In this document: piece by piece, positions 22,201 through 63,540 of the stretch
Numbering within the stretch: the stretch's first letter is position 1
Layout: the number at the start of each line of letters is the position of its first letter
Assembly (NCBI RefSeq): GCF_022201045.2
Contig: NC_068558.1
Location: forward strand, 44,481,001-44,545,000
Length of the DNA: 64,000 bases
Source of the DNA: Citrus sinensis
Lineage: Eukaryota > Streptophyta > Magnoliopsida > Sapindales > Rutaceae
Direction of reading: 5' to 3'
Notes under the pieces: model-generated
The model's input: the letters and a program-made list of their open reading frames with translations, nothing else
Database searches by the model: none
What the model was told of the DNA's origin: nothing
Translations under genes and position numbers: made by a program

Positions 22201-25200
22201 TTTTGGTCTAAATTTTCTTAATGTTTGAAAGAATACTAGCATGGATTGCTGTTTTGAATCCTGAAGATCTTTTTGATGTCTACTCTACCATTAGTTATTT
22301 ATTTATTTATTTATTTTTTATGTAGTCAAAATCATTTAATTTAATCTGCTAACAGAAGGTACCACTTTCCTGTAGGACTAGTGGTTGATGATCCCCGGAC
22401 GCTTATAAGCTATTTTGCAGTCTTCATGCTTGCTTGTTTCAAACTTCGTGCCGATCTATTGTCCAGCTTCTCTGGGTCCTCAACGTATCGTCAAATGATG
22501 TCCCAACGTAAAAACACATTTGTTTTGAGAGATCTTTCTTTTGAAACTAAAAGCATGTGGACCTTTCTCGACTATCTGAAGCTTTACTGTTATTGCCATC
22601 TACTGGACCTTGTGCTTGTACTGATTTTGATTACTGGTACCCTGGAGTATGACATTCTGCACCTTGGCTATCTTGCTTTTGCCCTTACATTCTTTCGGAT
22701 GAGACTAGAAATACTAAAGAAAAAGAACAAAATATTCAAGTTCTTGCGCATATACAATTTTGTCCTTATTATTCTTTCTCTTGCGTATCAATCTCCATTT
22801 GTAGGGGAATTCAGTGCAGGGAAGTGTGAGACAATAGACTATATCTTTGAGATGATTGGATTTTATAAGTATGACTATGGGTTTCGGATTACTGCAAGAT
22901 CTGCACTTGTTGAGATTATTATATTTATGTTGGTATCACTTCAGTCATATATGTTTTCCTCCCAGGAATTTGATTATGTCTCGCGATATCTTGAGGCAGA
23001 GCAAATTGGTGCCGTTGTGTGTGAACAAGAAAGGAAAGCTGCCTGGAAAACTGCACAATTACAACATATTCGTGAGTCTGAAGAGAAGATACGCCAACGT
23101 AACATGCAAGTGGAAAAGATGAAATCTGAGATGCTCAATTTGCAGACACAACTTCACAGCATGAACTCCATTGCTAATTGCAATACCACTTCACCGGACA
23201 CTGAAGGCCTAAGAAGGAGGAATACTCCTCTTACTTCAAATTGGGAATCAAGGACCCCTGATAAAGGGGAAGGTTTAATTAGGAAGCAAGAGCAGATTAT
23301 AAAAGAGGAATTACAATTTCCTTTGGAAGTTCATGAATTTCCTGCTGTTGTTCACATGGACAATCTAATGGGGGTGGTTTCTCCAAAGGATTCAGTGGGA
23401 TCTCCTCCTTGTGAAATCAATGAGATTGAGCTAGATGTTGCGGATAGTGCAGACTTCGACTCAAATAGAAGTATCAAAGCCAAGGAAAATCCTTTAAAGT
23501 CTGCAGTACAACTACTAGGTGATGGAGTTTCCCAGGTACAGTCTATTGGAAATCAGGCAGTTAATAACCTTGTGAGCTTTTTGAACATCACTCCTGAAGA
23601 TTCAGACATGAATGAGCTGTCCTCTGCTGAGGATGAGGCATATGATGAAATGGAGAGCCAGAAGAAGAGGTACGTGTCTCTGGATCGTTCATATTCTCTG
23701 CAATCTGACAAGAGTTCAGACGCTACGAGTTTGCAGATTGGAAGGATCTTCCGTTACATATGGTCCCAAATGCGGTCTAACAATGATGTTGTGTGTTACT
23801 GTTGCTTTGTGCTTGTGTTCATTTGGAACTTCAGTTTGCTTTCAATGGTGTATTTGGCAGCTCTCTTCTTGTATGCTCTATGTGTGCATACTGGCCCAAG
23901 TAGCATCTTCTGGATTATTATGCTAATTTACACGGAAATGTACATTTTAGTTCAGTATCTGTACCAAATTATCATCCAGCACTGCGGGTTAAGTATTGAT
24001 TCAGACCTCCTCCAGGCATTAGGGTTCCCTGACCCTGCACATAAAATCACATCATCTTTTGTTGTCAATGCAGTGCCTCTTTTTCTGGTCTACTTTTTTA
24101 CTCTCTTACAGAGCTCTATAACTGCAAAAGATAGTGAATGGATGCCCTCTACAGACTTCATTTCTCGCAGGAGGGATGCTCTCTACAGGAAAGAGGTTCT
24201 GGTGAATTATAGTTGGAGTAAGAAGGCACAAGAGCTGCTTCAACAAATGATAAATATGGTGAAATTGATAATAAGAAGGTTCTTCAGGTACTGGAAATCA
24301 CTGACACGGGGAGCAGAATCTCCTCCTTACTTTGTTCAGTTGTCCATGGATGTTAACTTGTGGCCAGAAGATGGGATTCAGCCAGAGAAGATCGAGTCTG
24401 GAATAAACCAAGTGCTTAAAATTGTTCATGATGAGCGATGCAAGGAAAAAAACCCTAGCGATTGCCCTTTCGCTAGTAGGGTTAACATTCAGAGCATTGA
24501 GAGAAGTCAGGAAAAACCAAACATTGCGTTGGTTGTTTTGGAGGTAGTGTATGCCTCACCTTTGACTGGATGTGCTTCAGCAGAATGGTACAAATCACTT
24601 ACTCCCGCAGCTGATGTTGCAAAAGAAATTCGTAAAGCACAAAGTCTTGGGCTTTTTGAACAATTGAGATTTCCTTACCCACTACTCTCTATAATTGGGG
24701 GAGGCAAAAGAGAAATTGATCTTTATGCCTACATTTTTGGAGCTGATTTGACTGTGTTTTTTCTAGTTGCCATCTTTTACCAATCCATCATAAAACATAA
24801 TAGTGAGCTTCTTGATGTTTATCAGCTTGAAGACCAGTTTCCCAAGGAGTTTGTATTTATATTAATGGTAAGTCTTTCTCTTGAGAAGTTGTGGTGGTAT
24901 ATTTCTCCATTACCTGGCTGGCATCTTCCACTTAATCTAGTTCTCTTACTGGATTAAATGCTTTCTTCATGCAGATCATCTTCTTTCTGATTGTTCTTGA
25001 TCGCATAATTTACCTTTGTTCATTCGCCGTAGGAAAAGTGATTTTCTACCTTTTCAACCTCATTCTCTTTACATATTCAGTCATTGAGTATGCTTGGAAT
25101 ATGGAGGCTTCACACCAACGTGCGGGAGAGTTTGCTCTTCGTGCAATATTTCTCGCAAAAGCGGTTTCTTTATCATTACAGGCAATACAGATTCGTTATG

Positions 25201-42260: not shown

Positions 42261-45233
42261 ATGCCACCATTAACAAACCAAGAACTCATTTTCTTCGAGA
42301 CCAACTTCTCCACAATGCTCAAAGTCCTCAACAAAAGACTCCGGCGCCTTTACTGCCGTCTCCGGTGGCCGGTCCGCTGCCGACCGGAGCCCAAAGTTAT
42401 AGTAAAAAAGTTCAGAAAATCCAGCTACAAATCACAAAACGACTCAAAAAACGAACTTCCCCTTAATGGGTCGGCTACGGTTCATCCAAATGCTCGAACT
42501 GTTGACCTGAAATCAGAAAAATCAATACGTGTAGCCACTTTCAACGCTGCTCTGTTCTCAATGGCCCCCGCAGTACCCAAATCGGAGAAGCCTTCAAATT
42601 TTGACCATGAAAATGAAGATTTCAACAGAATTAATTTACGTGCCAAGTCAGTGATTGATCGTCCAAAGAGCATACTAAAGCAGTCTCCTTTACATTCAAG
42701 CTCAGTGAATGGAACAGAGAATCTTTCCAAGCAACAAAAGTTTGCAAAATCAAAGCTCAGGGTATCCATAAATTTGCCTGATAATGAGATTTCTTTGTTG
42801 CGTAACCGGCAGCTGAGTTTCAGAGAAGAAGATAAAGATGAACCTTCAAGCAGTGCTGTCAGAAGGATTTTGAGAGGAAAGGCGCCATTGAAATCAAGTG
42901 TGAGTTTTCCGACGAGTTCTATAGCCAGTGTTGGCAGCACAAGGACAGTTCTTGAGGTTTTGAGGGAATTGGATGCGGATCTTCTGGCTTTGCAAGATGT
43001 GAAAGCAGAGGAAGAGAATTCGATGAAGCCGTTATCTGATTTGGCAGCCGCTCTGGGGATGAATTATGTTTTTGCTGAGAGCTGGGCTCCTGAGTATGGC
43101 AATGCTGTCTTGTCTAAGTGGCCGATCAAGCGCTGGAAAGTGCAGAAGATTTTTGATGATACTGATTTTAGGTGAGTCAATTTCTCAGTTCTAGTTAGTT
43201 CTTTTAATATATAAAATTTCTATGTTTGAAGGAATAAAGGTAGAAAAAAAAAAGTTTCCTTTTGAAAATGTCAGCAATTGTCTCTTCTTTTGATCAGAAT
43301 AATATGGGGTTTCTAAGTGTAGCTTTCCTCAAAGTTGAAGAAACTTTCCATAGGATATGATTTTTTGATAATCTATATAGTAATTGAAGAAATTGTTTAC
43401 TGCTGTTAGACTTTTACATATTATTAATTATTGCCTCTGCGTTCTGCGATCTGTTTGGCCTAAATCGTGTGCAAGCAGCTCTGACACTGTCAAACTCACA
43501 GTAACAGCTGTATGCAGGGTCGTATAAAACCTAAGTTAGGATTTTTTTTTACCTATATTATATTATCATCAGTTCTATATCATTCAGATGTTTTTTTTTT
43601 TTTATATATATATATTCCCAACATTTTCATTAAGGCCCTATTGGTGACTGTTGAGTATATCTATCTAGTGTAATTTCAGAATGAAAACATAGTAAATAGC
43701 TTTTCTTGTGAACGATGTTGAATATTTTAATTTTTCCCAGAAAACTTGTGAGTTTCAATTTTACTGCAATGCCTAATTCCACTGAACTGTTAGTTTACCC
43801 CTGCTCAAGATAAAACTATGTTTTTGTTAATAAACCAGTTTTTTAAACTCAAATATGTAGAGCTTAGTGATTATTAACCTGTTGGGAAATTTACCTGTTT
43901 TCTTGAAAGATATACTTTCGAAAATGATTGCTACTATTACTAGAAGTCAGAAATTTGAACTGTTTCCATCAATCTATTTTTTGAATTGTTATATAGAAAG
44001 GGATGATTTGTTTTTAAAATAAAAACAAAATAATAATAATAATAATAATAGAAAGCACTAATTCGATTTGACGTGAAGTGCGTATTGTTATTATAGCTGC
44101 AATTTTGGTATGCCATGAGTCAAATTATTAGCATAATTGAGATGAATGAATGCTACATCCAGCGAACAACTTTTTGTTGGAAAAGCAACATTTTTCAGAT
44201 CAAGATAAAATAATCAATTATGACTCCTCTTTGCTCTTAATGTCTACTATTAATTTAAGCAATTTATTCGATCATCGTACGACTAATATATTTATGGGTT
44301 TCATGCTTCAACATGTCGTTCTGTTGTCTGATAAATGATAAAAGGAACAAGGAGAAATGTATATATTATATGACCCTGCATGGTGCTTTTTACAATGCAG
44401 GAATGTTCTTAAGGCCACCGTTGATGTTCCTCAGATTGGAGAAGTCAACTTCCACTGCACTCACCTTGATCATCTCGATGAGAACTGGCGGATGAAGCAG
44501 ATGAATGCAATCATCCAATCTAATGATCATGGTGAGGCCCACATCTTGGCTGGAGCACTTAATTCACTTGACGAAACAGATTACTCTTCGGAGAGATGGA
44601 CTGACATTGTAAAGGTAAAAACTATTGCAGCTTTGATCATTCTCAATCCGGTCACAAAAACAACTTGATTTAACTTCGTTTTTTAACTGGATTCGCATTA
44701 CATCTTATATAGTACTACGAGGAGATGGGAAAGCCAACCCCAAAAGTTGAAGTCATGAAATTTCTGAAGAGTAAACAATACACCGATTCTAAGGACTTCG
44801 CTGGTGAATGTGAGTCGGTGGTCATGATTGCCAAAGGCCAAAGTATGCAACTTATCACTTTTAAATGTTTCCCCCCAGCTAATCAGAAAATTTCTCTATT
44901 CAAAACCACTGTTTTTATGATCTTTTCTTTTTTTTTTCCTCATAATACGATGATGCAGGTGTGCAGGGGACATGCAAATATGGAACCAGAGTGGATTACA
45001 TATTGGCATCCCCGAATTCACCGTACAAGTTTGTTCCGGGTTCATACTCGGTCTTTTCTTCGAAAGGGACTTCGGATCATCACATAGTGAAAGTTGATAT
45101 AACAAAAGCGCAAAGCGACGAGAAGCAAAACGATGTCGGTCGGAAGCGATACAAACCTAAACAGAAAGTTGTAAAGATATCAGGGTCTTCTCCAGCAAAA
45201 GGTATATGGAAAGCACAAATGCCAGAGAGATAA
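42261..45233 (+). CDS. Endonuclease/exonuclease/phosphatase (DNase I-like) family protein
   Basis: Four exons: 42261-43171, 44401-44614, 44713-44842 and 44959-45233. All are GT-AG, and the phases close to 509 aa. The fold's motifs are present: RVATFNAALFS, a metal-site strand LLALQDVKAEE (Asp where many members have Glu in LQE), YGNAVLSKWPI, HLDHLDENWRMKQ, LAGALNSLDETDY (usually GDxN), GTRVDYILAS and the C-terminal SDHHIVKVD. A long Ser/Lys-rich insertion (about residues 100-230) separates the first strand from the rest, as in the plant-specific subgroup of DNase I-like proteins. The substrate is unknown (nucleic acid or phosphoester). The N-terminus is basic (RLRRLYCRLRWPVRCR). Part of intron 1 (about 43730-44240) is duplicated at 56830-57280. 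Confidence 0.88.
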
Positions 45234-46488: not shown

Positions 46489-47301
46489 TCACCGATAATC
46501 TCCTTCATGACGATCATCACCAGTCACCTCCACCTCTCTATTCTCATCCCTAGCATCATCACCTAGACGATCACCGATACTCATCTCACCGTTACCATCA
46601 TCAACTTCTTGATCAACAAGATTATCACCAATCATCTCCTCTATACGATCATCAGCAGCCATGTCCTCTTTTTGCTCACGATCACCAATATTCATCTCGT
46701 GATCATCATTTTTCAACTCACCAATACCACCATCAACTTCTTGATCATCACGTGCCATCGCCACTTCGTCACCACCGCCAACAAGATCCGCCATATAATC
46801 GACCATTACGATATTCAACCGTCCATCACTCCCCGTCACTTTCTCGAGACTGAATCTTGGCCGTCCGCTGCAGAACAGTGTAGACAAAAATGGCGGGAGA
46901 ACTCTTACTCGGCGCATTTTCGTCTTTCTGCCGCTTGATGTAATTAATCTTGATGAGTGCTCCTCAATCACCTTGGACAAGTCCATCTTCTCCGACATGC
47001 TCTCAAAGCCTAGGACCTCCGTACACATTTCGTAAAACTCCGTACTTCCTGTGGCAGTTCCCGAAGGCCTTGGTACATTCACATAGTCCATTCCCGCGGC
47101 AGCAGCGATTCCTAAAAGAATGTCGCCGGCTCTGGTATGTGGATTAACACTGCTTCCGATTATAGAATCAAGAATGCCGATAGCCGTAGGTGGTGATGAG
47201 GTGTCTTCCTGCGGCCGACTGTCATCCGGAGGCTGAGGTTGTTCCTCATCAGGTTCTTGGTTCTCTGAGGTGGAGCGCTCGGATTTGTTGGCAGAACTCA
47301 T
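46489..47301 (-). CDS. FANTASTIC FOUR (FAF)-like protein, copy 1
   Basis: A single exon of 270 aa from the ATG at 47301 (MSSANKSERSTSENQEPD). A conserved module spans about residues 40-160. It begins ILDSIIGSSVNPHTRAGDIL, followed by YEMCTEVLGFESMSEKMDLS and LPPFLSTLFCSGRPRFSLEK, and ends GSDGRLNI. The LGFES box followed by a PP-x-L-S...RP...DGRL box is the arrangement of the plant FAF/FAF-like family, whose founding members repress the shoot meristem regulator WUSCHEL. The C-terminal 100 residues are Asp/Glu-rich (DDRIEEMIGDNLVDQEVDD), also usual in that family. The match is loose, so the family call is moderate. It is divergently oriented to GH3 and has a paralogue at 58374-59462. Confidence 0.62.
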   Translation of the reverse strand: MSSANKSERSTSENQEPDEEQPQPPDDSRPQEDTSSPPTAIGILDSIIGSSVNPHTRAGDILLGIAAAAGMDYVNVPRPSGTATGSTEFYEMCTEVLGFESMSEKMDLSKVIEEHSSRLITSSGRKTKMRRVRVLPPFLSTLFCSGRPRFSLEKVTGSDGRLNIVMVDYMADLVGGGDEVAMARDDQEVDGGIGELKNDDHEMNIGDREQKEDMAADDRIEEMIGDNLVDQEVDDGNGEMSIGDRLGDDARDENREVEVTGDDRHEGDYR

Positions 47302-47914
47302 TGTCAAGTTCTTTTAATTTCAAGAAAATCCTATTAGAATTGAGTTTTTATTAGAGTTTTTGTGGAAGAGAGAGGTCTAGTATGTATACATATACTGATG
47401 ATGCTTAGGTGAATTTTTTTTAGGGCAAAAAAAAAAATAAAAAATCAACGAACGGAATTGAAACGAGGGCATGCGCCAATGTGGCAGTTGATTTGATGAA
47501 GGGAAACGGGCAAGTTATTTGTTGGTCGCTCTACTCTACATAGATAGTTGGGGGAGTTCAGCGTAAGATTGTGCCATCCATTACCACTAATAATATATCC
47601 AACCTTATTGTAGCACTAATAAAACTTTTCACCAATAAATTTACTCACATATATTGTTGAGGGATGAGTGGGCATTTCAACAACTAAAATTTTTTTTAAC
47701 CTCTACGAGTTACTTCATTAATCAATTTTAATTTGTTATTATATTTATTGAGCTATATAAAAATAATATTACGTACATTTACAAGTTAATTAAATAATGC
47801 TATACGAGCAGATGGTCGTCGAGGCGAAACTCTAAAGAGCAGAAATGTTGACTTCACTCTGGCTGACGCGAGCATCGTTAAATTGAGTCTCTGCGGCTGC
47901 GCCGGTTTGGTTAT
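47302..47914. promoter_or_regulatory. Shared upstream region of FAF-like 1 and GH3, cut by the MULE
   Basis: Joined to 54608-54681, this stretch forms the original intergenic region of about 700 bp between the divergent FAF-like (-) and GH3 (+) genes. Blocks such as GCATGCGCCAATGTGGCA and GAAATGTTGACTT recur at 59683 and 60592 in unit 2. Confidence 0.55.
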
Positions 47915-48305
47915 CAAAAGCTGGGACACGGCTACCATGCAGGGCATAAAATCCCTGTATGGTGCAGGGGCTGCCTTTGAACCGTTGGATTCAGCTTGTT
48001 TGAATCCAAGGGTTGTGGTTTTAATTAAAAAAAAAAGAGAAAAAAATAAGGCAACCGATTAAAGGGAGTAGCTACAGTTCATAACAAATTACCGTTGGAT
48101 TGAATAGAGTGGATCCAATGGCTGAGATTTGTTTAATTATTAAATGATTAAAAAACTTTGAAAGAACAAACCTATAAAATTGAAACAAACAAAAAACGAA
48201 ACCCCTACCACTCACTCACTTACCTCACACACGCCAAACGCCTCACCACTCCCTCACCACACACCTCACCACGGCCAGCAACGGGGACGGCTGAAGGAGT
48301 TCCTA

Positions 48306-48432
48306 GGCAACGATCAACGACGGCACAAGGACGGGCTGATCTCCACCGTCGGCAATGATCAACGAAGGCAGAAGGACGGGCTGATCTTCTTCGTTGACAA
48401 TGATCAACGGCGGCACAATCACAGCGCCCTCA
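48306..48432 (+). repeat. 45-bp coding-like tandem repeat within the MULE
   Basis: Units 48306-48350 and 48351-48395, plus a partial third to about 48432. They keep an open frame reading (G/D)NDQRR(H/Q)KDGLI as 15-residue repeats. The surrounding short frame has no convincing ATG and no known family. Whether it is translated is unknown. Confidence 0.65.
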
Positions 48433-50730
48433 GCCCCTTCAGGAATACATGCAACAGTTTATAAAATTTTGTTTCCCGTAAGTACTGTGATGGGTTTTGT
48501 TTGGTTTGTGAGAAAAGTGAGGAAATTTTAAGAAAATAATGTTTTTTTTTTGTTTTTAGGGTTTATGTTGGTTTTGATGATGAGTACAAGTTTGTTTGGT
48601 TGCTGAGAAAGTGAAGATAAGAAAAAAAAAAGTTTTCTGTTGTTTTAGATTTTGATTTTTAGGAAAAACTAATTAAAATTTCTAATTTTTAGATTGACAG
48701 CTTTTATTTTCTCTTGATCCTAGTAATGAAAGTAGTTGCTATGTTAAATTCATTTAAAATTATTTTCCTGCCTTTACGAGACTCCTTTTTTTTGGACAAA
48801 AAAAGGAGTCAATGATTTGGCTTTTATTTGCAGTGAATTTGGTGTGTGTTGTTAATTTTGTGGCGCATAGGTTGTTGTGGCATATGCAGTTAGGCATGTG
48901 GCTGCTGCAGTGAGTATGGCCAAGGTTGCAATTTCAGTGTTTTGGTTTCAACGTTTCTTCTGGATCAGACATTTCTTTTGCCAATTTATATGTCCCTTGT
49001 TCCAATGATTTTGGTTGTGCTCTTACTGCGGTGACCAAGCTAAAGTTAAACATGACTGGTAATCAGAATTTTCCTTTATTTCTGGAAACTGAAACAGCAG
49101 TGTATATGATATATTCACTTGTTATCTAGTAAACTTGGTATCAATGATTCTTGTATAATTCTTTGTTCCTTGCTTTCAATTAGAGATGTGAACTAAATTA
49201 TTAATTTGGGAATCATTTATCGTTTTTTCCCCTTTTTATTTGATTCTTTAGTTTTGTTTGTTGGTTTCCACAAAACCTTTTTATTTCCTCAATTTTGCCA
49301 TCTTTCTTTGCATGAGCTGCATATGATGATTTGAGTAAAATTATAATAACATTTTTTAATGGGAACTTTTTATTGTTTATAAGTAATATGTATATGGGAA
49401 TGGGAACTAAGAATAGTGTGTTTAAAGTCCTGAACTGTTTTTGCCATTTTGATTTTGATGTCAAGTAATTTTCATAGTTTTAAGGGAATGGATTTAGGTT
49501 AATATTGATTGTAACTAGATAAGTCCTTTTATGTAATAAGTTTGAAGGATTGGTTTTGTAAATTCAATGTAATGGCTTAAAAAAGGCTATTAAATTGGCT
49601 TAGGTTGCCACGAGCTATAACTAAATCAGAAACATAATACATTTTACTTATACAAAATTAGTTCATTCTTGGTATGGAGGATTAAAATTTGTACAATGAT
49701 AAATAAAATCAATGTTGTCCTTATCTAATACACGCTTTGATCTAGAAATAGCATATTACAACATGCATGTTAACTCTTCGATAAAATGCCTATTAAAATT
49801 CTCAGACCTATTTCAAGCTCAAGTATTGCATGTCCCTTAAGATAATGACAGTTTCATTGTTTTATATTGCAGATTTGAGATTTTTTGGGTGCCTATATAA
49901 CAAGTTAACAATGGCGGCTTAATAGTTTAAAAGGGAAGGTAATCTCTCTTCATATCTTCTCGAGGATTCTTCTTTATGTATTTCAATTATGTCTCACATA
50001 TGTATTAAATAGAGGTTTTGATTAAAAGCTTTTTGTTTTCAAAATTAAATTTCTTATTAAGGGGTTGATTTTTAGCTAAATTGTGATTGCTTGCTGAGAA
50101 ATTGGATTGTGTCATGAGATTTTGTACTCTATTGGTTTATTTTTTTGAGTTGTTTGGATTCTGATTGAGTGGAATTTGCCATAAATTTGTCAATATAATG
50201 CCATGTACTGAAATGATGTAAAGCATGAGCTTCAAGGTTTACTCTATTTTTTTAATTTTTAATTGCTTATTTACTAATTGCATAATGTGTTTTCAAATGA
50301 GCTTATGTTTATTAGAAAAAAAAGGGCCAGATTGTTTTTGTGTATAAATGTGAATTGATGCCCAAATTTTGGAATAAGTTTGTGAAGAATCTGGAGTTGA
50401 GAGTTAAAGACAAGTGGATAAAAAATGATGTCTTGAAAATGTCACTTAGTGTTTTTGTTATAGTGACTTAATCTTTGAGTTGTTTTATTGCAAATACTGA
50501 ATACTAGAGTTCTTGGAGCGATTATGATGATGCAAGCATCTATTAGATGGTTGAACATTCTTTGGTCAATATAAATTCACTTTAGCATGACTTAAGGCTA
50601 AAAGAAAGGATAAAAAATTGGCGATTATGATGATTTAAGTATCTAATAAACAGTTGAATACAATCATTAAATGGAAAATTGCTATGTTTTCTCCAGGGGT
50701 AAAGGTTTCCAATAACGCAGCAAACCCATT

Positions 50731-50913
50731 TCTCTATTTGTGCTTTTCTTTGGAGCTCTCCTTGGACAGGACTCGATAACTATTGCAAAACTTGCTGCTG
50801 TTTTTATAAGCATGGATGGTGTTGCCATGACGACAGTTGGAAAAACTTGGGCAGTGGATGAATTTCTTAGTGCCTCTGAAGAAGATAAATATGTTGTTAA
50901 TAAGTTGTGCTGA
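50731..50913 (+). pseudogene. Captured fragment of an EamA/SLC35F-type transporter
   Basis: The plus strand reads about 60 codons, including SLFVLFFGALLGQDSITIAK and GVAMTTVGKTWAVDE, before a TGA at 50911-50913. These blocks are characteristic of the plant EamA-like/SLC35F drug-metabolite-transporter subfamily (At4g32140-like, from memory), in which they are a small internal piece of a protein of about 400 aa. No other part of the gene is seen nearby. I infer transduplication of one exon-sized piece into the MULE. Confidence 0.7.
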
Positions 50914-52019
50914 GCTTTTACTTTAAAACTACTTACCTTTCTTCCTCTTTTTATTTGCCGTAAATTTATGCAATATATCAATCTACTTTTTTTCGGAGAT
51001 GATACTTGTAATAAGATTGTATGATGCACTTAGTGTAATGTACTAGATTTTGGTGGATTTTTATAATATGTAGAAACTATTATGTTTGATATAGGAATAG
51101 TTAATTTGAATTATTTTCTTTAAATTGTGTTTCCTATAATTACTAAAAAAAAATAAATTGATTAAATTGATTTAGCGGATGGGAAAATAATCCTATAAAT
51201 TTGTGTGGGAATTAATAGAATTAAAAATGGTTGTAAGGTTATTTATAGTGGAGATTTTGGCTATAAAAAGCGCTAGTAGAGTATAAGAGCTCTTCCGAAT
51301 TTATTTGTGAGGCCACTTATTGCAACCATTAGTATTTTACTCATTTTTAGTTTTTTTTATCAAACTTAATAGTTAAGTCATATTTTGCTTTAGCACACTT
51401 ATTTCTTCACTTTAATGGTTCACTTTCACAAATTTCACTCAAATGTGAAAATTTTCAATTTCCACTACAACTTAGTTGAAAGTTATTCATTGGGTTTACT
51501 ACTTTTTCAAGCCTTAATCAACAAATTGAAGGCATACATTGCTTAACTAGAATTTCAATAATAATTACAAAAAGCGAGTGCTATATTTCAAAGATTAAAA
51601 TTAAATATAACACACTAAGAGGCTTTGATAGTTCTCCAACCAAACGAAAGAGTTAAAACACTAAAAAGCAAATTCATATTGGAATATTATTATTTTGTTG
51701 GTTACCTTTATTCAGAATACAAATACTTCGAAAGTGATTATATTTATAAAAAATTAGAAGAAAAATGTTAACAAAATAATATTATTGAATGTCTAAAACG
51801 AACACTTGTAGTCTAAAGTATGATCATTGAAAGATTAAAATCGGTGCACGAAATTCAAGTGAAACGGTTAGATTTAAGACTAAATAAATAGTATTCGTAC
51901 AATGAGTGTTGTTAAATCCCTTAATATTCTTCTAATGCTTATGTTAAAGTCACTTTACAAAATGGTGGATTAAAAATTTTCGGGTGTTTGAAAAATAATT
52001 ATCTAAAATATTGAATAGT

Positions 52020-54330
52020 AAATTTAAAACATATTACTTAAAATATGTAACAATGAGTACCTCCGTAACAATGAACATAAACATCAAATATGAGACTCCG
52101 AACTTAAAACATAAAACATGAACCATAAACATGAAACGATGGCAAAATAGAAAAATTTTAAGGTATTTAAAAATTATTACATAAAACATTAAATAATAAA
52201 TATGAAACACGTTACTTAAAATGTGCAACAACGAACATAAAATATGAGTACCTCCGTAATAATGAACATGAAATATAGAACAGCAAACATGAAACACAGA
52301 ACGTAAACATGAAACGGGGGCAAAAAAGAAAAATTTCGGGGTATTTGAAAAATTATTACATGAAATATTGCACAACCATCGTGAAACAGATCACTTAAAA
52401 TATGCAACAACGAACATAAAATATGAGTACCTCCGTAACAGTGAACATGAAACATAGAACAACAAACATGAAACATAGAACAACAAACATGAAACATAGA
52501 ACGTAAACATGAAACGGGGGCAAAAAAGAAAAATTTCGAGGTATTTGAAAAATCAGTACATGAAACATTGCACAACCAATATGAAACATGTCACTTAAAA
52601 TATGCAACAACGAACATAAAATATGAGTACTTCCGTAACAGTGAACATGAAACATAAAACATGAAACATAGAACAGCAAACATGAAACATAGAACAACAA
52701 TCATGAAACACAGAACGTAAATATGAAACGGGGGCCAAAAAGAAAAATTTTGGGGTATTTAAAAAATCAGTACATGAAACATTGCACAACCAACATGAAA
52801 CAGATCACTTAAAATATGTAACAACAAACATAAAATATGAGTTCCCCTGTAACAGTGAACATGAAATATAAAATATCAAATATGAAACATAGAACGTAAA
52901 CATGAAACGGGGGCAAAAAAAAAAATTTCGGAGTATTTGAAAAATCAGTACATGAAACATTGCACAACTAACATGAAACAGATCACTTAAAATATGCAAC
53001 AACAAACATAAAACATGAGTACCTCCGTAACATGGAACATGAAACATAAAACATGAAACATAGAACAACAAACATGAAACATAGAACGTAAACATGAAAC
53101 GGGGGCAAAAAAGAAAAATTTCAGGGTATTTGAAAAATCAGTACATGAAACATTGCACAACTAACATGAAACATTGCACAACCAACATGAAACAGATCAC
53201 TTAAAATATGCAACAACAAACATAAAACATGAGTACTTCCGTAACATGGAACATGAAACATAAAACATGAAACATAGAACAACAAACATGAAACATAGAA
53301 CGTAAACATGAAACGGGGGCAAAAAAGAAAAATTTCGGGGTATTTGAAAAATCAGTACATGAAACATGGCACAACTAACATGAAACAGATCACTTAAAAT
53401 ATGCAACAATAAACATAAAATATGAGTACCTCCGTAACATAGAACATGAAACATAAAACATGAAACATATAACAACAAACATGAAACATAGAACGTAAAC
53501 ATGAAATGGGGGCAAAAAAGAAAAATTTCGGGGTATTTAAAAAATCAGTACATGAAACATTGCACAACCAATATGAAATATGTCACTTAAAATATGCAAC
53601 AACGAACATAAAATATGAGTACTTTCGTAACAGTGAACATGAAACATAGAACAGCAAACATGAAACACATAACGTAAACATGAAACGGGGGCCAAAAAGA
53701 AAAATTTCGGGTATTTGAAAAATCAGTACATGAAACATTGCACAACCAACATGAAACGGATCACTTAAAATATGTAACAACAAACATAAAATATGAGTTC
53801 CCCTGTAACAATGAACATGAAACATAGAACGTAAACATGAAACGGGGGCAAAAAAGAAAAATTTCGGAGTATTTAAAAAATCAGTACATGAAACATTACA
53901 CAACTAACATGCAACAGATCATTTAAAATATGCAACAATGAACATAAAATATGAGTACCTCTCTAACAGTGAACATAAAACATAAAACATGAAATATAGA
54001 ACAGCAAACATGAAACTTGAACGTAAACATGAAACGAGGGCAAAAAAGAAAAATTTCAGGGTATTTAAAAAATCAGTACATGAAACATTGCATAACAAAT
54101 ATGAAACAAATCACTTAAAATATACAAAAACAAATATAAAATATAAGTACCTCCGTAACAGTGAACGTAAAACATAAAATATGAAACATAGAATATCAAA
54201 CATGAAACTTGAACGTAAACATGAAACGAGGATAAAAAAGAAAAATCTTGGGGTATTTAGAAAATCAGTATATGAAACATAAAACATAAAATATGAAACT
54301 TAAAATGTTAAACATGAGATAAATTTCATA
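52020..54330. repeat. Minisatellite array, about 12 units of 163-224 bp, inside the MULE
   Basis: The marker ACTTAAAATATG (with variants) recurs near 52037, 52212, 52391, 52592, 52805, 52985, 53209, 53388, 53583, 53762, 53925 and 54111. Each unit also has ATGAGTACCTCCGTAACA, AACATGAAAC(A) submotifs, ACGTAAACATGAAACGGGGGC and AAATTTCGGGGTATTT. Unit length differs by the number of AACATGAAACATAGAAC-type subrepeats. Minus-strand open frames across it are an artefact of the repeat composition. The array stops about 270 bp before the right end of the element. Confidence 0.92.
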
Positions 54331-54681
54331 AAAAATGAATAAAACTTTTATCTTTTTCTTAAATCATACTTTATTTTATTTTTAAAATATTTTTAATAAA
54401 AAATATTTTTTTTCATTTTTACTTTACTTATCCTTTTCTACAACTTATTATTATTATTATTATTATTATTTAAATATTATTCGTTTTAAATATTTTTTAT
54501 TTTAATTTATTTAAATAAAAAATACATATTAATGGCAGCAACCGGCTGGAAAACCGGTTCCTGCCAGTCATAAAAGTTTGGCTATCATAGCCGTGTCCCA
54601 AAAGCTGTTCATGCTAAGCTGCCCCGTCCCGTGAGCACACCACGATACCATAAACCGCGGCCACTACCGTTCCCGATAGAT

Positions 54682-56593
54682 ATGATGACCGACGAAGACA
54701 TCCTGAAGAAGCTCGAGGACTCCACAAAAAACGCCACGCGTCACCAGCTCGAGACTCTGCAGTCAATCCTCGAACGCCAAAGCGGCGTACGTTATCTCCA
54801 ACCCTACCTCTCAGGCTGCTGTGCGCCGATCGACGCGGCAACTTACAAGCGCACAGTGCCGTTGTCTTGCTACGATGACTACGCTGATCACATCAATCAA
54901 TTGGCCGGTGGCGATCACGGTCAAAATGATCAACCTCTGCTGGCCGTTGATCCCTTAGTATGCTTCTTTTACAGGTAAAAAATCAATCTTTTCTCCAAGC
55001 CAAACATTGATTTTAGAATTTGTTTAATTTTTCATTTCGAGTTTTAATGCTTTCCAGTTCTGGGACAAGTTCAATGAAGCCAAAATTGATTCCATATTTT
55101 GACTCAGCACTTTCAAAAGCTGCTTCACAAATAGCTATTCAAGGCAGCGTTGCAATTCTTCGAAGGTCTTAAATTTTTTGTTGTTAATTTCACGTCTTTA
55201 TATCATTATGCATATTACTTTGTTCTGTTTCTGATTTTTGAAATTCAATCGATCTAGGTTGTTTCCTCCGAAACATGATGTTAATAAGATCTTATTTTTC
55301 ATTTACTCCGACAATAAAACAACAACAAAAGCTGGATTTAAAGTTATGGCTGCGTCTGCTTTTCCTTTGCAAGGTAGTAGTAACGAAAACTTGTCTCAAC
55401 TTATCCGTCATTCTAGTCCGCGTGAAGTCATTGTTGGATCAAATTTTCAGCACCAAATGTACTGCCACCTTCTTTGCGGTCTAAGGAATTATGAATTTAT
55501 CGATGGAATTTTTTCTCCTTATGCTATAGGATTAATTGGAGCATTTAGTTTTTTTGAATCTAAGTGGGAGCAGCTATGTGATGATCTTGAAAATGGGTAC
55601 CCGTGTTTGGATATTACTGAGGTTGCAATGCGAGATTCTGTTATTGAAGTTCTTGGTGGGCCACAACCAGATTTGTCAAAAAGGATCCGATCAATTTGTG
55701 GAGAAAGTAATTGGTCTGGGATTTTTAGTAAATTATGGCCTAATGTTCGATATATTAAGTGTGTTACAACCGGAAGCATGAGTCAATATTGTTCAAAAAT
55801 AAAGTATTACGCAGGGGAGGTTCCTGTTTTAGGTGGAGATTATTTTGCATCAGAATGTTATGTGGGTATTAATTTGGATATCGCACAGCCTCCGCAGACA
55901 ACACGATTCGTTATGCTTCCCACTGCGGCCTATTTCGAGTTCCTTCCTTTTGATATGGAGAAGAATGAGGCTGTTGGAGAAGAAACTGTTGATTTTTCTG
56001 GTGTTGAGATTGGAAAGATGTATGAAGTGGTTGTGACTACTTATAGAGGATTTTACCGGTACCGTTTGGGTGATATTGTGAAAGTTGTTGATTTCTATAA
56101 TTCTTCTCCACAAGTGGAGTTCGTGATGAGAGCTCCTAAAAGTTCTTTTGAGATAATAAGTGAGAGAGATTTGATGTCTGCCATGGAAAGTTTCCAAATG
56201 ATGCTTAGAAACGTTATGGCTGTTGAGATCGTGGAGTTTGCAGGCTATACGAATTTGGAGTCGAGTCCAAAGAAGCTAATGATCTTTGTTGAAATTAGAG
56301 AGGGATGTACTAAGTTGCGAGACTCAGTTGCAATCCTTAGAAGGTGTTGTTCCTCGCTGGAGGATGCCTTTGGAAGCATTTATAAGGTGCAGAGGGACAG
56401 AGGTGAGATAAGCCCTTTATCGGTATCCATTGTGAAACCTGGTACATTTGATAGGTTACTACAAGTCGCCATTGAAAAGGGGGCGCCAGCTAGTCAATAC
56501 AAGCCACCTAAGATTGTAAGAAATCGGGAAATTGTTGAATTTATGGAAGGATGCTCTCTTGTGACTGTGAGACTGGATTCTTTAGATGGTTAA
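54682..56593 (+). CDS. GH3 family acyl-acid amido synthetase (PBS3/GH3.12-like group)
   Basis: Three exons, 54682-54974, 55058-55165 and 55258-56593 (all GT-AG), encode 578 aa, the normal GH3 length. GH3 enzymes adenylate a carboxylic acid (jasmonate, indole-3-acetate or benzoates) and conjugate it to an amino acid. Visible motifs are the ATP-binding SSGTSSMKPKLIP (spanning exons 1-2), YFASECYVGINLD (the YxSSE adenylate motif, with Ala for the first Ser) and the nucleotide-binding GFYRYRLGDIVKV. The C-terminal domain ends with SQYKPPKIVRN. Overall similarity points to the third GH3 group that contains PBS3/GH3.12; the acid substrate cannot be decided. The start is ATG 54682 (MMTDEDILKKLED). 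An upstream in-frame extension has no ATG. The start lies only 84 bp from the MULE, so the native promoter has been displaced. Confidence 0.9.
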
Positions 56594-58373
56594 GGGATTG
56601 GAAGCACATGGTGTTAACTCCTACATTTCTATATTCTGGTGATAGAAGTATGCTGCCTATTTGATCAATGAAATTGTGATATTTTTCTGGCTCTGGTTCA
56701 AGTATACTGGTATCTAATTGCAGTACAAATTGTCGGAACATCTAAAGTTTGGGTTGATGGGCAAGAGGCTTCTTATATATTCTTAGAAGAGAGTTTTAAC
56801 TTTTTTTGCATTGCATATTACAATAAAATTATTCCCAAATAACATGTGATTTTCAATGTTACTGCAATACTTAATTGTACTTTTTAATTGCTAATTTATG
56901 CTGTGTTCAAAATCATTCTACCACTTCTTGCATTTGTCGTTCCACCAATTTTATAATCACCAACATCTACAGTCTATTGATGTTTAACTTGTCGGGAAAA
57001 TTATCTGTTTTCTTGTAAGGATTGTTGCTAGCGCCATAGTTCAGAAGCTTGAAGCTGTTCGATCACTCTGTTTTGACTTGCTATTGAAAGGGGTTATTTA
57101 GTTTTATACAATAATGCTTAGTGTGCACTCTTTTGGGTATAGCTGCAAATTTGGTATGCAATGAGTCAAATTATTAGCATCATTGAGATGAATTAATGCT
57201 CTATGTATTATTAACGAGATTTTTTGGAGAAAGAAATATTCAGTTGAAGATAAAGTCATTGATTATGACCCCTCTTGACTCTTTGAAGTACAAGGAAAAC
57301 CCTAAAGAGCAAACCTAGTCTTTATCAGTGGGCAGTTGGGCTTGCAATTTGCAACGTCACACTGTGGGACACCCAGCACACCTCAAGTTAATGGTACCTC
57401 ATTCTGGATTCTCCAGTGGCGACAGAATGCTGTATTATTTACCCAGCACCTAGTAATTTGTTTGTTCAAAAAGCAATATGCATATCTATGAAGTCATTGA
57501 ACAATGTATCACGTTTGAAGTTAAACAGCTAGCTGATGCAAATCACCTATGGTTAGTATGGCATCTGCTCTTTCTAGAAAGGTAGAAGATGTATATATGT
57601 CACAGGTTCAAAAGTGATAGATCATCGATGCCTCTGAGATATGCATATCAAGCCTATTATGGCAACACATTCATTCAACTCTATTTGAATTCTACACTAT
57701 AGAACCAGCTAGTGCCAGTTCAAATTAATTTCCTATAGTCTGATCGTACAAACAATAAGATTTCTTTGCTTTCGAGCATACCTTGAACATTCTTTTTTAA
57801 TCTGGGCAATTACCAATATCAAGGATGGCACAGGCAAATACTTATTTAGTTCACAATAAATCAAGCCAAGATTGGAAAGCCCCAATGTTTGACTTGGCTC
57901 AGCTTGCATGATGAAATTGGGCTTCGAACTTTTTTGACAAAATTCTTTAAAACATGTGCTCCATTTCTTCATGTTCAATGGGATCCCTATTTGGGTCAGT
58001 CCCGAAGTAAATACCAAAATAACCAGAAAACCTGATTTGGAGAAGATCCAAAGCTTTTTAATCTACAACTAATTATGAGAATATCAACATGCATTTGAAC
58101 ACAAGGTCACGACCTCTCTTTGTTGAACATCATGAAATGAAGCAAAAAGCGTCATACTAATAGCACGTACTTTTAACATAATGTAATCCAAGAATTCAAC
58201 CAAACTGTTCTATATATAGTAAGTAACAAAAATGAGTTACCAAAACTTGATGGACCTTATTATTAGTTAACCCCTCCATCATTTTCCCGCCAAAATCAGT
58301 TAGTAGAAAATGCGACCAAACAAAGGGTGAAAAAAAAAAAAAAAAGGCTTAACTACCTCTTCCCTTTTCTTCT
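56594..58373. other. GH3 3' flank and start of tandem unit 2
   Basis: The GH3 3'UTR extends to about 56800. From about 56830 to 57280 the sequence is related to intron 1 of the EEP gene (see the separate entry). 57300-58180 holds nothing I can name. 58180-58373 resembles the 3' flank of FAF-like gene 1. Confidence 0.55.
56830..57280 (+). pseudogene. Relic of EEP gene intron 1 (tandem duplication unit 2)
   Basis: 57141-57200 matches 44095-44154 with about 4 mismatches in 60 bases (AGCTGCAA..TTGGTATGC and onward). Weaker matches extend on both sides, for example TTTTCAATGTTACTGCAATACTTAATT versus TTTCAATTTTACTGCAATGCCTAATT (near 43755). The EEP exons that should follow are absent. Confidence 0.75.
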
Positions 58374-59462
58374 TCAAGTCTTCTTCCTATTGTTCTTGTT
58401 CTTCTTCTTCTTCTTGTAGTTATTCTTGTTCTTCTTCTTACTGTTCTTCCAATGATCACCAGTCATCTCGTCCGTCCGATTATCATCATCATCTTGATGA
58501 TCACCAAGCATCTCCTTCTCGTTGCTCTCACCGTTATTATTACCAACATCTTCCTGACGATCATCACCATTGTCACTCGCATCATTACCACAATCGTCTT
58601 GGCGATAACCAATCATCTCCGCATTCGACACCCCATCTCTCCCCACCGCTTTCTTGGAACTGGGTATTGGCCTTCTCCGGCTGTCCACTGTGTACAAAGT
58701 TGGCGGGAAAGCACCTTTCGGATTCGAGCTCATATTGTCTCTCGTTACTCCGCACGTTTTCATCGCGCCTGATATTAATCTCGATGACTCATTAATTATC
58801 TTGCACATTAAGTCCATCCGCTCAGAAAAGCTTTCAGACCCTAGGCTCTCCATACACATTCCGTAGCACAACTTCGTCTGATTCTTCTCATGATGATGAT
58901 GACGATGATCACCAGTAGCGATCTCCTCCTTGTTATTCATATCATCACTAATATCCTCTTCTTGATGATCGGGTTTCATCTCCACCGCCGGTGTCTCATC
59001 GCTCCCAAATTCAAACTTTATGATCTTCAACCGTCCATCACTCCCCGCCACTTTCACGACACCGAATCTTGGCCGTCCGCCGCTGTTCAGTGCAGACAAA
59101 AACGGTGGGAAAGCTTGCGGCCTACATTTTTCTCTCATTATAACTCCGCACAATTTCGTCATTCTGCTGCTTGATGTAATTAACCTTGATGAGTGCTCCT
59201 CAATCACCTTGGACAAGTCCGTCTTCTCCAACATGCTTTCAAAGCCTAGGATTCCTTTGGCGGTTCCCGGAGGCGTCAGTTCATCCACAGACTGCGTTCC
59301 CGCGGCGGCAGCGGTTCTTCCAAGAATGTCGCCGGCTCTGGTATGTGGATTAACACTGCTTCCGATTACAGAATCAAAAATGCCCGTAGGTGGTGAGCTT
59401 GTGACGCCAACGGATGATATCTCGGGAGGTTGGCTGGCCATTGGTTGTGAGGCCACCGTCAT
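58374..59462 (-). CDS. FAF-like protein, copy 2, with doubled module
   Basis: A single exon of 362 aa from the ATG at 59462. Module 1 (about residues 25-150) matches copy 1 closely: IFDSVIGSSVNPHTRAGDIL, KTDLSKVIEEHSSRLITSSS, FPPFLSALNSGGRPRFGVVK and GSDGRLKI. Module 2 (about 195-290) repeats the same order in diverged form: YGMCMESLGSESFSERMDL, ESSRLISG, FPPTLYTVDSRRRP and GRDG. A His-rich patch (DHRHHHHEKN) lies between them, and the tail is Asp-rich then Lys/Asn-rich. A longer N-terminus homologous to copy 1 (MSSPKKFKSSTSENQEPD, ATG at about 59530) runs into a TGA because of an 8-bp deletion, so the present ATG lies within the old N-terminal coding region. It may be functional or an early pseudogene. 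Confidence 0.55.
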   Translation of the reverse strand: MTVASQPMASQPPEISSVGVTSSPPTGIFDSVIGSSVNPHTRAGDILGRTAAAAGTQSVDELTPPGTAKGILGFESMLEKTDLSKVIEEHSSRLITSSSRMTKLCGVIMREKCRPQAFPPFLSALNSGGRPRFGVVKVAGSDGRLKIIKFEFGSDETPAVEMKPDHQEEDISDDMNNKEEIATGDHRHHHHEKNQTKLCYGMCMESLGSESFSERMDLMCKIINESSRLISGAMKTCGVTRDNMSSNPKGAFPPTLYTVDSRRRPIPSSKKAVGRDGVSNAEMIGYRQDDCGNDASDNGDDRQEDVGNNNGESNEKEMLGDHQDDDDNRTDEMTGDHWKNSKKKNKNNYKKKKKNKNNRKKT

Positions 59463-60545
59463 CCGGAGGCTTCCTTATCAGGTTCTTGGTTCTCTGAGGT
59501 GGAGGACTTGAATTTCTTGGGAGAACTCATCAATAAGTTTTTTTATTATCAAGAAAATCCATTAATTAGAGCTGAGTTTTGATATTTTATTTTATTTTTT
59601 GGTTTTGACCACGAGTTTTGATATTTTATGGGAGAGTATTCAGAGGAACGGTGTGTGGGGCCGTGTGAGCGATTGGGCGGGTGGCATGCCAACGTGGCAT
59701 TTCAGTAGTTAGTTGTGGCGACTATAGTTTGGGAGTTCGGTAACCGTATACATACAGTTACCATCTATAGTGAAGCACTACTCTTATGATTTACTAATCA
59801 AATCTAAAACATATTGGTAGATAAATTTAATTGATAATGAAAAAGTTGCAACCACTAAAAAATATATCGTCGGAATAATAAGTATTATGTATCATGATCA
59901 TTGTTCCAACAACTAAAAATATTTTAATTTTTTTTTCTCCTAACCTCTCTTAATTTAATAAGTGGGCAATATTAAATTTTAAATTTTAGTGTTGATAATC
60001 AAATCAATTGTTTTTTTACTTTATAATCAAGTTATATTTTTTTCGCTAGATTTAAAAAAATTAAGAGAGGATCATAATTCTAAGGACTATGATGGAGGAA
60101 ATTTTGGCTACGCTGCATGCACAAATTGAAATTTTCCGGAAATGTTTCTCATGCCATCATTAACTTAGGATGACCCTAACTTATCTCCTTTAATTTGGTA
60201 GTGGATTTCGAATCAACCAATGTTGTGTACCTTCTTAACAGAAAAAAAACGAAGTAGTACAGGACATTCTACAATAATTTTCGGCATGTTATAACCTTGT
60301 TGCTTCTATGCTGGGCAAGCTTGCTTTCAAATTTTTCCATGTCCTCGTGTTGGCTGGTAGATTTCCGAGTGACCATTATTTGCACACTTAAATTCTGTTT
60401 TATGAACGAAGTTCTTTTACATAAAATAAGAATAATAATAATAATTCCATTTATGAGTTCCTGAATTTATTTGCTAATTACCATGTCAAATTAGAAAATT
60501 ACATTAATTAAGCAGTAAAAGACTGATGGAGTATTACTGAAGATA
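59463..60545. other. Upstream region of FAF-like copy 2
   Basis: It contains the out-of-frame old N-terminus of FAF-like copy 2 (about 59470-59530) and promoter sequence related to 47330-47700. Beyond about 60000 it is AT-rich with no gene seen. Confidence 0.5.
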
Positions 60546-60770: not shown

Positions 60771-61702
60771 TTATTAACGCAACATTAATAAGTTTTGTTT
60801 GTTAAACGAAATATCTACGACTATTATAATTTATTTGGAATTGAGTAGTTAGTAACTTAAAATATAATTTTTATAAAATAAAGTTATAATTATGAATTAA
60901 AAGTTAATATTATATTATAAATATAATTTTTATATAATAATTTTAATAAAATTAATAAATTTTTAATAAATATTTTATCGTATAAATATAAAATTAAATC
61001 AATTTAATTTTTAAATTATTTTATATAATATTTATTAAACACTTTAATACCGTACGTTAACCTCAATCCGAATCAGAACATATAAAAGATATATGCCAAA
61101 GTCATATTTGTGTGATTACTAGGCAATACAAATAGAATTCTAGCATAATAGAGTTTGGAGTCCGGGTCCTTCAGTACTTATTGGTTCTTACATTAGAGTT
61201 TGAGAAAAAATAATTATATCAATTATAATAATAATGATATTTGTATAAAAATGATTTTAAAAAAATTATTACAGTATTTTTTATTTTGTGGTGATATTTA
61301 TATTATTTTTTGTGCTATTTATATGTACATATCCTAAATATTCATATGATTTAGAAAATCTAAAGTAAATTTTTAATACTAAACCATAAATTCATCCATT
61401 TAAGTAAAAGATTTAAAAAACGAAGAAAAAAAAAGGAGAAGAGGGGGAAGAGAAAAACTACAGATGGCGGCTGAAGGAGGTTATTTTGGTCATTTTACAT
61501 AAATTAGGTGGATATGGTTTGAAAATTTTGAAAGTCATCTCTGACTTCAAAATCCTCTTCACCTTTACAAATCCCCAGTTCCTTCCCCACCAAACGAATA
61601 AGCTCATCATCTATGCGATTAGAAATCCTCACCAAACGCATAAGCTTATTGTCTATCCGATTAGAAACAGAAACACAATCATAGACAGACAGTGATCCAA
61701 AA
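60771..61702. other. AT-rich upstream region of the ARM-repeat gene
   Basis: No gene is seen. It is very AT-rich to about 61440. The last 250 bp are the probable leader of the ARM gene, with a direct repeat of about 50 bp (AAATCCCCAGTTCC...CATCTATGCGATTAG-like text repeated as CATAAGCTTATTGTCTATCCGATTAG). Confidence 0.45.
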
Positions 61703-62653
61703 ATGGAAGTAAAGCGACGCACCGTTCGGTCGTTAGTGACCAAACTCGGTTCAGTGTCGGAACAAACACGGGCCGAGGCTCTGGCCGAGCTGCGCCTCCT
61801 TTCAAAGCACGACGCCGAAATCCGTCCTATGATCTCCGAAGCTGGCTCTATCCCGTACTTAGCCGAAATCCTTTATTCCTCCTCGCACGCATTTCAAGAA
61901 AACGCCGCCGCCACGCTCCTGAACCTCTCAATCACCTCGCGTGACTCTCTGATGTCCACGCGCGGCCTCCTCGACGCCATCTCCCACGTGCTCCGCCACC
62001 ACTCCACCTCCACCTCCTCCGCCGCCGTACAATCCTCCGCCGCTACGTTGCACAGCCTACTAGTCGTCGATTCTTACCGCCCGATCATCGGTGCCAAGCG
62101 CGATATCATTCACTCTCTCATTGAAATCATAAAAACGCGTAACTCACCGCTGCGTTCTGTTAAAGACGCGTTAAAAGCGCTTTTTGGAATTGCGCTTTAT
62201 CCGTTAAATCGCTATCAAGTAATTGCGCTAGGTGGGGTCCAGCCTTTGTTTTCACTGGTTGTGAACGGGGGAAGGGCTGGGATTGTGGAGGACGCGAGCG
62301 CAGTGATCGCGCAAATTGCGGGATGTGAGGAAAGTGTGGACGAATTTAAGAAATGTTGTGGAATCGGAGTGTTGGTGGATTTGTTAGATTTGGGCACGGG
62401 ATCAGGTCATAGAGTAAAGGAAAATGCAGTGTCAGCGCTGTTGAATTTGGTGAATTTTGGAGGGGAAAGAGCTGCAGAAGAAGTAAAAGAGATGGCGATG
62501 CAAGTAGCGGATGGAATTGCTGATGTGGCCCAAAATGGGAGCGCAAAGGGTAAGACAAAGGCAGTAGCGTTACTGAAGATACTGGTTGATGATGGGAATA
62601 TGGTGAGAGATTCATATTTTTCTTCTTTGCTTGATCAATCAGAGTCTTTATGA
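61703..62653 (+). CDS. Armadillo-repeat protein, intronless
   Basis: A single exon of 316 aa from the ATG at 61703 (MEVKRRTVRSLVTKLGSVSEQTRAEALAEL). Repeated ARM motifs are visible: EAGSIPYLAEILYSS..FQENAAATLLNLSI, LLDAISHVLRHHS..VQSSAATLHSLL, SLIEIIKTRNS..VKDALKALFGIAL, GGVQPLFSLVVNG..VEDASAVIAQIAG and GVLVDLLDLG..VKENAVSALLNLV. This resembles the ARM half of plant U-box (PUB) proteins but has no U-box, so it is a protein-interaction scaffold without predicted E3 activity. The first half is strikingly G/C-rich compared with its neighbours. It lies between two parts of a broken GH3 copy. Confidence 0.85.
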   Translation: MEVKRRTVRSLVTKLGSVSEQTRAEALAELRLLSKHDAEIRPMISEAGSIPYLAEILYSSSHAFQENAAATLLNLSITSRDSLMSTRGLLDAISHVLRHHSTSTSSAAVQSSAATLHSLLVVDSYRPIIGAKRDIIHSLIEIIKTRNSPLRSVKDALKALFGIALYPLNRYQVIALGGVQPLFSLVVNGGRAGIVEDASAVIAQIAGCEESVDEFKKCCGIGVLVDLLDLGTGSGHRVKENAVSALLNLVNFGGERAAEEVKEMAMQVADGIADVAQNGSAKGKTKAVALLKILVDDGNMVRDSYFSSLLDQSESL

Positions 62654-62986
62654 ATGTAGTTTATATTGTTTGATCTAGTAGTGACTTTAGGTTCAACGTT
62701 GTACAATTTAGAAATTTTATTGTATTGGTATTGACAATATGATGTATCATCAAATTTAGTTTATAATAATTGTTTGGTTTTGTATATTTGACAAGAATTG
62801 ATTTTAGCACGACATATTTATTCATTCATTCACTGGTTGCCTTCATTTTCAGTTTTTTATTCTAGTTCTATTGTGAGACGGTGATGAACATCTGTTTATC
62901 TCTATCTATATTATTGTCAAATATCCATGGATATTTGGTTATGAAGTCCTGAAATAGCTGTTTATAAGCTTCATTAGAATATTACG

Positions 62987-63540
62987 ATGACCAATGAAGA
63001 GATACTCAAAAAGCTCAAGAACTGAAGGAAGGTCACCAGCTCGAGATTCTCCAGTCCATTCTTGAATGCTGAAGCTCGAGATTCTCCAGTCCTTTCTTGA
63101 ATGCTGAAGCTGCATACGTTATCTCCAAACCCATCTCTTTGGCTACGGTGCATTGATTGATGCAGCAACTTTATCAATCAACTGGCCAGTGGTGATATGG
63201 TCAACATGATTTGCCTCTCCTGTTCATTTATCCCCTAGTATGCTTCTTTTACAGGTAAAAGGAAGATCATCTTTCCCTTAGCCAGTCCAGGCAAATATTA
63301 GAACTTGGATGATCTTTTCTTTTAAAAAATAAAACAATGTTTATATTTCTGGAAGGCCAAATTGATTCCATATTTTGACTTGGCACATTCAGAAACTGCT
63401 TCATTAATAGCTCACTAAGGTAGTGGTGCAATTCTTCAAAGGATTTTTTTTTTTTTTTCCAGCTGCTCCTCTTTGTACAAAACAGGAAGGAATGGCTAAA
63501 CTTTTGATTGATTGGCCAGAGGCTTCTATATTCTTTGACT
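62987..63540 (+). pseudogene. GH3 pseudogene relic (exons 1-2 and 3'UTR, large exon missing)
   Basis: 62987-63255 is a decayed copy of GH3 exon 1: ATGACCAATGAAGAGATACT matches ATGACCGACGAAGACATCCT, and TTAGTATGCTTCTTTTACAG|GTAAAA is kept including the donor. A TGA follows after about 11 codons, and a 35-bp tandem duplication lies at 63039-63073/63074-63108. 63355-63440 is exon 2 debris (CCAAATTGATTCCATATTTTGAC). About 63500-63535 resembles the GH3 3'UTR (GGCCAGAGGCTTCTATATTCTT). The 1.3 kb third exon is gone. Confidence 0.85.

Follow-up and report, generated by a model that had tools for sequence, protein, structure and literature searches.

A Pack-MULE with captured gene fragments between a FAF-like gene and GH3 in sweet orange

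What separates the auxin gene GH3 from its divergent neighbour, a FAF-like gene, in the sweet orange genome, and what might this mean for GH3? We analysed a 64-kb stretch of Citrus sinensis DNA (C3:44481001-44545000; hereafter the window), in which the initial annotation had proposed a 6.7-kb Mutator-like element (MULE) with a perfect 9-bp target site duplication and inverted ends, and we searched the whole genome (299.7 Mb, 11 contigs) for its family. The proposal was borne out, with exact coordinates, a family sharing the same ends and a relative that carries a transposase. With a probability of about 0.93, the segment 47924-54598 is a non-autonomous MULE with captured gene fragments (a Pack-MULE), inserted in a 696-bp gap between the two divergent genes. 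This identification and the insertion rest on the existence of a multi-copy family, on independent 9-bp duplications and on the same-ended transposase-bearing relative.

The element and its family

The element comprises 6,675 bp (47924..54598, +), its left end, of the CCATG type, facing the FAF-like gene and its right end, of the TATGATA type, facing GH3. Direct reading, a scan of the window and comparison within the family all place the two copies of the 9-bp duplication CAAAAGCTG at 47915..47923 and 54599..54607. The left terminal inverted repeat (TIR), GGACACGGCTA (47924..47934, +), is perfect over 11 bp, the right one, TAGCCGTGTCC (54588..54598, -), being its reverse complement. Past these 11 bp the likeness is weak (the left and right ends agree at 13 of 17 and at 19 of 34 positions), and the ends are of the short-TIR or non-TIR type. 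The window scan, which looked for 9-bp direct repeats around perfect 11-bp inverted repeats spaced 200-20,000 bp apart, gave two hits, namely this element and a poly-A artefact.

Inside the ends, family backbone forms a left part (47924..48466, +; about 83-84% identical to the family members L011, L012, L015, L016 and L021), which contains 45-bp repeats at 48306-48440, and a right part (50882..51972, +) with pieces common to other members at about 89-96%. Next come a subterminal array (51972..54341, +), whose tandem units measure about 190 bp, and a right subterminal region (54342..54598, +), to which related sequence occurs at no fewer than 40 genome places among those listed. No frame longer than 115 amino acids lies to the left of the array and none there looked transposase-like by eye, no frame-by-frame Pfam scan having been made; likewise, a MULE-domain search, in which 150 of 899 candidates were scored and listed, placed no hit inside the element.

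A 16-base terminal pattern matched the genome 46 times, against 0 matches in a reversed control. Pairing 28 of these matches yielded 14 complete elements of 3.1-9.5 kb, and the remaining 18 are single ends, among which the duplication was examined for C1:19.71 Mb only. Perfect 9-bp duplications, all different in sequence, flank 12 of the 14 complete elements, and every one of the 14 carries an array of about 190-bp units near its right end. L011, L012 and L016 are alike at 99.8-99.9% over 5.8 kb, and L009 matches L013, L014 and L017 at 98.8-99.8% over 5.0 kb; such near-identical copies indicate that the family moved recently. One sister copy of the window element, L019 (C8:15661072-15670578), has about 2.9 kb between its array and its right end, compared with 257-343 bp in the other 13.

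The initial annotation had pointed to an autonomous relative with these termini as a means of checking its reading, and one has likely been found. At C1:19701755-19713962, an element of 12,208 bp flanked by the perfect duplication CTGCCTCCA contains an uninterrupted 726-amino-acid frame with FAR1 (8.1e-22), MULE (PF10551, 1.3e-28) and SWIM (3.6e-5) domains, oriented from the right end of the element towards the left. On the strand opposite the transposase, parts of an Ulp1/C48 protease gene lie in open frames (PF02902, 1.1e-8 and 2.5e-6). Further left is a 258-amino-acid frame for which no Pfam match was obtained; in the huyou protein P0135, an N-terminal part like this frame is joined to a C48 domain. 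Judged by its sequence, this relative is likely an autonomous member of the family. The association also extends beyond a single copy. A search with the right 300 bp of L011 returned 91 rows, of which 51 with at most 53 bases were dropped and 40 long ones kept (40 of 52 candidates scored; two kept rows at C7:21.977 Mb are possibly one element). Among the MULE-domain candidates scored (150 of 899), 7 of these 40 right ends have one on the opposite strand at 2.5-3.5 kb towards the interior, and 0 of 40 have one within 13 kb outside. Three of the seven domains are in open frames of 726 amino acids and the others in frames of 287-685 amino acids, and a FAR1 remnant (2.2e-10) is retained in L018.

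Pack-MULEs are recognised by fragments of host genes with related loci elsewhere, and the window element contains such fragments, related to three loci at 80-91%. From left to right, all on the + strand, these are a piece of a TPT-family translocator gene comprising one exon and its surroundings (48468..49216; donor locus C9:26.456 Mb, 80% identity), a first fragment of an EamA-type transporter gene (49215..49715; donor locus C1:0.871 Mb, 88%), a fragment of a locus at C5:25.581 Mb whose gene was not identified (49713..50531; 82-85% in two pieces) and a second fragment of the EamA-type gene (50733..50990; donor locus C1:0.871 Mb, 91%). Exons at the donor-type loci match the Pfam families TPT (1.5e-32, C9 locus) and EamA (1e-6, C1 locus), and we take the two genes to be, more finely, a glucose-6-phosphate translocator and an SLC35F-like gene. 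In the window element, the TPT and EamA pieces are in sense orientation and the captured exons are degenerate, the TPT exon being 71% identical and carrying a deletion. Neighbouring BLAST boundaries of the captured pieces overlap by 2 and 3 bp, which would be compatible with template switching. In another subfamily, a 1.1-kb piece like C3:42.588 Mb (95-96%) stands where the copy at C5:7.757 Mb has backbone and only 11 other bases, and the two copies give a before-and-after view of a single capture.

The interior of the window copy is also found at C8:15.66, C3:20.06 and C7:15.21 Mb at 96-97% identity, covering 3,404 of 3,801 bases at the C8 and C3 places and 2,867, in one piece, at C7; most of the mosaic therefore predates the spread of these copies. 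Across the 3,026 columns shared with the three sister copies, 35 substitutions (1.2%) are private to the window copy, compared with 24, 38 and 109 in the others, the last figure belonging to L019 and possibly including less well aligned left sequence. Substitution rates are in the range of 2-7e-9 per site per year, at which a divergence of 1.2% would make the window copy at most about 2-6 million years old.

The insertion site and GH3

GH3 is intact (54682..56593, +), encoding 578 amino acids in three exons (54682-54974, 55058-55165 and 55258-56593), and the frame of its third exon is 100% identical, over 98% of the length, to the C. sinensis cluster P0001. On the other side of the element lies the FAF-like gene (46489..47301, -; 270 amino acids), whose start codon is at 47301. 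The initial annotation had placed the insertion between these two genes; divergent genes do flank the element, but the FAF-like label is weak, as the protein has no Pfam match at E<=10 and its tandem paralogue reaches only 0.42, below the cut-off. The ATG of GH3, at 54682, is 74 bp past the right duplication, and removal of the element and one duplication would leave the start codons 696 bp apart (622 + 74). The further claim, that the element must replace the GH3 promoter, is stronger than the sequence warrants. Both parts of the native upstream DNA persist, 622 bp to the left of the element and 74 bp to its right, now 6.7 kb apart, and all 578 codons of GH3 are intact. Because the native bases are still there, the element is better described as separating, rather than replacing, the native upstream DNA of GH3.

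The position itself is typical for a Pack-MULE, since in maize and rice Pack-MULE occupancy is highest just upstream of transcription start sites, with insertions in the 5' untranslated region (UTR) eventually purged (PMC7337890). Native DNA has a single TATAAA/TATATAA site facing GH3, at 47754, which would imply an insertion within the 5' UTR; we rejected it as evidence for a start site, as one or more such sites turn up in 56% of simulated sequences. A short upstream ATG frame of 7 codons, seen by eye, lies at 54611-54634, past the right duplication and ahead of the GH3 ATG.

How the insertion bears on GH3 expression can be read in two ways, each of which we put forward tentatively. Possibly, the element interrupts the 5' UTR or core promoter, and GH3 on this haplotype is expressed less than normally or not at all, in which case the intact gene would be a recently silenced allele. 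That only 74 native bp precede the ATG is consistent with this, as are the peak of Pack-MULEs near start sites and the purging of 5' UTR insertions in maize and rice (PMC7337890). In a mandarin hybrid, moreover, promoter structural variants at allele-specifically expressed genes are enriched for hAT and MULE-MuDR sequence; the authors propose that alleles carrying the insertion are expressed less (PMC12577126). However, the TATA-like site behind the 5' UTR placement is expected by chance and the GH3 frame is intact, and a single frame of a 2,118-base contig, which looks like a spliced transcript, encodes a 578-amino-acid relative with 96% identity, although the contig represents another allele or species. 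The insertion might equally have had no lasting effect, with GH3 transcription starting within the 74 bp or a promoter at the end of the element replacing the native one. The same intact frame would fit this outcome, and a MULE upstream of rice PsbS1 accompanies a promoter with higher reporter activity (PMC4178011), but a right-end promoter in our element is putative. With a MULE beside an auxin gene on a phased genome, the locus allows a direct test, allele versus allele, of the effects of insertion.

The array, about 340 bp upstream of the GH3 start codon, suggests a more far-reaching connection. It contains 46 copies of ACATGAAAC in one orientation, where 0.26 would be expected from the composition of the array, and the other 61.6 kb of the window contain 0; the 9-mer was chosen after viewing the data, and tandem repetition itself imposes one orientation. 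Each of 15 elements, the 14 complete ones and the C1 relative, holds 20-62 copies pointing that way and 0-1 reversed. When one array unit was searched against the genome, 338 matches came up; the roughly 150 that were listed form 27 clusters, each with a right end ahead on the same strand, within 3 kb in 25 cases and at 5.1 kb and 8.8 kb in one case each. In Arabidopsis, the VANC proteins of MULEs recognise dense one-way motifs in tandem repeats (PMC5735166), and VANC genes carrying Ulp1 have been described in a review (PMC13317346). By analogy, the arrays could be binding platforms for an anti-silencing factor encoded by the Ulp1-type gene of the family, and non-autonomous copies could keep the array for de-silencing in trans; we consider this unlikely, but if true, it would put the auxin gene GH3 under a trans-acting switch of the family. 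The intact relatives and the long repeat array make the element useful for testing escape from silencing and effects on neighbouring genes.

The course of events that we propose for the Pack-MULE would begin with gene pieces being copied into it before insertion, probably by template switching during repair. A FAR1-type MULE transposase from an autonomous member would have acted on the GGACACGG ends, and the element would have inserted at a 9-bp staggered cut. This insertion would have shifted all but 74 bp of the native upstream sequence 6.7 kb from the start codon of GH3, setting the tandem array of the element at its present short distance of about 340 bp.

The surroundings of the insertion contain further copies of the two genes. 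A second FAF-like gene (58374-59474, -) has 53% identity over 196 amino acids to the first, and a broken GH3 copy lies downstream (62983-63540, +, start approximate), with an ARM-repeat gene at 61685-62653 between them. In view of this second FAF-like gene and broken GH3 copy, the FAF-like/GH3 unit seems to have been tandemly duplicated, and the pair seems older than the insertion. In addition, 56827-57283 partly resembles 43729-44238. On a 1,036-base contig related to the 46489-59474 region, P0122 fuses the N-terminal part of the second FAF-like gene to the C-terminal part of the first; this may stem from a deletion between the two genes that removed GH3 and the MULE, and a chimera of read assembly is equally likely. 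Elsewhere in the window are a remnant of a retrotransposon reverse transcriptase (15527-16057, -; RVT_2, 1.8e-49), presumably of the Copia type, and a gene for a Piezo-like membrane protein (22345-24954, +; THU_Piezo1, 1.7e-15), before which a long frame (20403-22037) has no Pfam match at E<=0.01.

Weighing the identification

Several observations count against the reading of the segment as an inserted Pack-MULE. Two of the 14 complete elements lack a perfect duplication, L015 having one mismatch and L021 none at all, and in the C1 relative, whose activity is putative, the right terminal repeat contains one mismatch. No empty allele was seen in the one citrus genome searched. The two captured coding stretches compared with Pfam have no match at E<=10, so that capture rests on DNA similarity (80-91%), and the true donors may be paralogues of the loci listed here. 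Furthermore, the second EamA fragment ends in ~110 bp that are also present in other subfamilies; the pieces were therefore not all gained together, and this stretch is older.

Two side points concern these observations. L021 could be a rearranged copy, comparable to the dissimilar duplications reported for CitMule_ARR (PMC4334395). A paralogous empty site was not found in this genome, where the left flank matches the tandem FAF-like gene only (71%, 566 bases), with the similarity ending about 50 bp above its start.

Combinations of a 9-bp direct repeat with a 7-bp inverted repeat do arise by chance (0-3 per window in 20 simulated windows of 64 kb, and 5 in ours), so it is the 11-bp length of the repeat and the multi-copy family that carry weight. 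The notion that the repeat pair is a coincidence and the segment ordinary intergenic DNA can be dismissed, being contradicted by the window scan with its 11-bp ends, by the 46 terminal matches, by a same-ended family with independent duplications and by the tandem array in 14 of 14 complete members.

The element is ordinary in kind, and the family is unusually complete, combining its ends, transposase-bearing members, subfamily-specific captures and near-identical recent copies; one capture site known with and without its insert adds to this completeness. Three MULEs have been reported as the source of 31 of the 40 spontaneous structural changes inferred in sweet orange (PMC9832951).

Comparison with known systems

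The window element is a known kind of insertion, and we did not find a description of the family itself in the literature. In the parts of papers looked at, without supplements, no paper was recognised as describing it and the name CiMULE1 had 0 occurrences, which is not proof that the family is undescribed. Within citrus, the CitMule elements of clementine resemble it in their 9-bp duplications, their transposase with FAR1, MULE and SWIM domains and their short ends (PMC4334395). The CitMule_1 duplication TTGTTGAAA occurs at either end of a 6.9-kb MULE at C3:6.790-6.797 Mb. We rejected an identity of the two, since this MULE differs in its ends, has no DNA match to the C1 relative and encodes a transposase that is 28% identical over 669 amino acids.

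The C1 relative, with its FAR1/MULE transposase frame and Ulp1-like gene, is reminiscent of the Jittery-like MULEs, for which Ulp1 genes have been reported in grapevine, and of the Arabidopsis KI-MULEs, in which Ulp1 is likewise reversed to the transposase (PMC2528002). In the C1 copy, the Ulp1 gene is visible as separate open pieces only, whose interruptions may be introns or breaks, and the likeness to Jittery lies in the domains. With the VANDAL21/VANC system (PMC5735166), the family shares a dense short motif in a single orientation, located in tandem repeats outside coding parts and associated with one family of transposable elements. The motif, however, differs from YAGTATTAY and the transposase is of the FAR1 type, the likeness lying in array and motif.

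Compared with the Pack-MULEs of rice, maize and Arabidopsis (reviewed in PMC13317346), the window element has short ends instead of long TIRs and, in addition, a 2.4-kb subterminal tandem array. It shares with them the terminal inverted repeats, the 9-bp duplication, the fragments of unlinked host genes and the occurrence in several copies, and no transposase was seen in it by eye.

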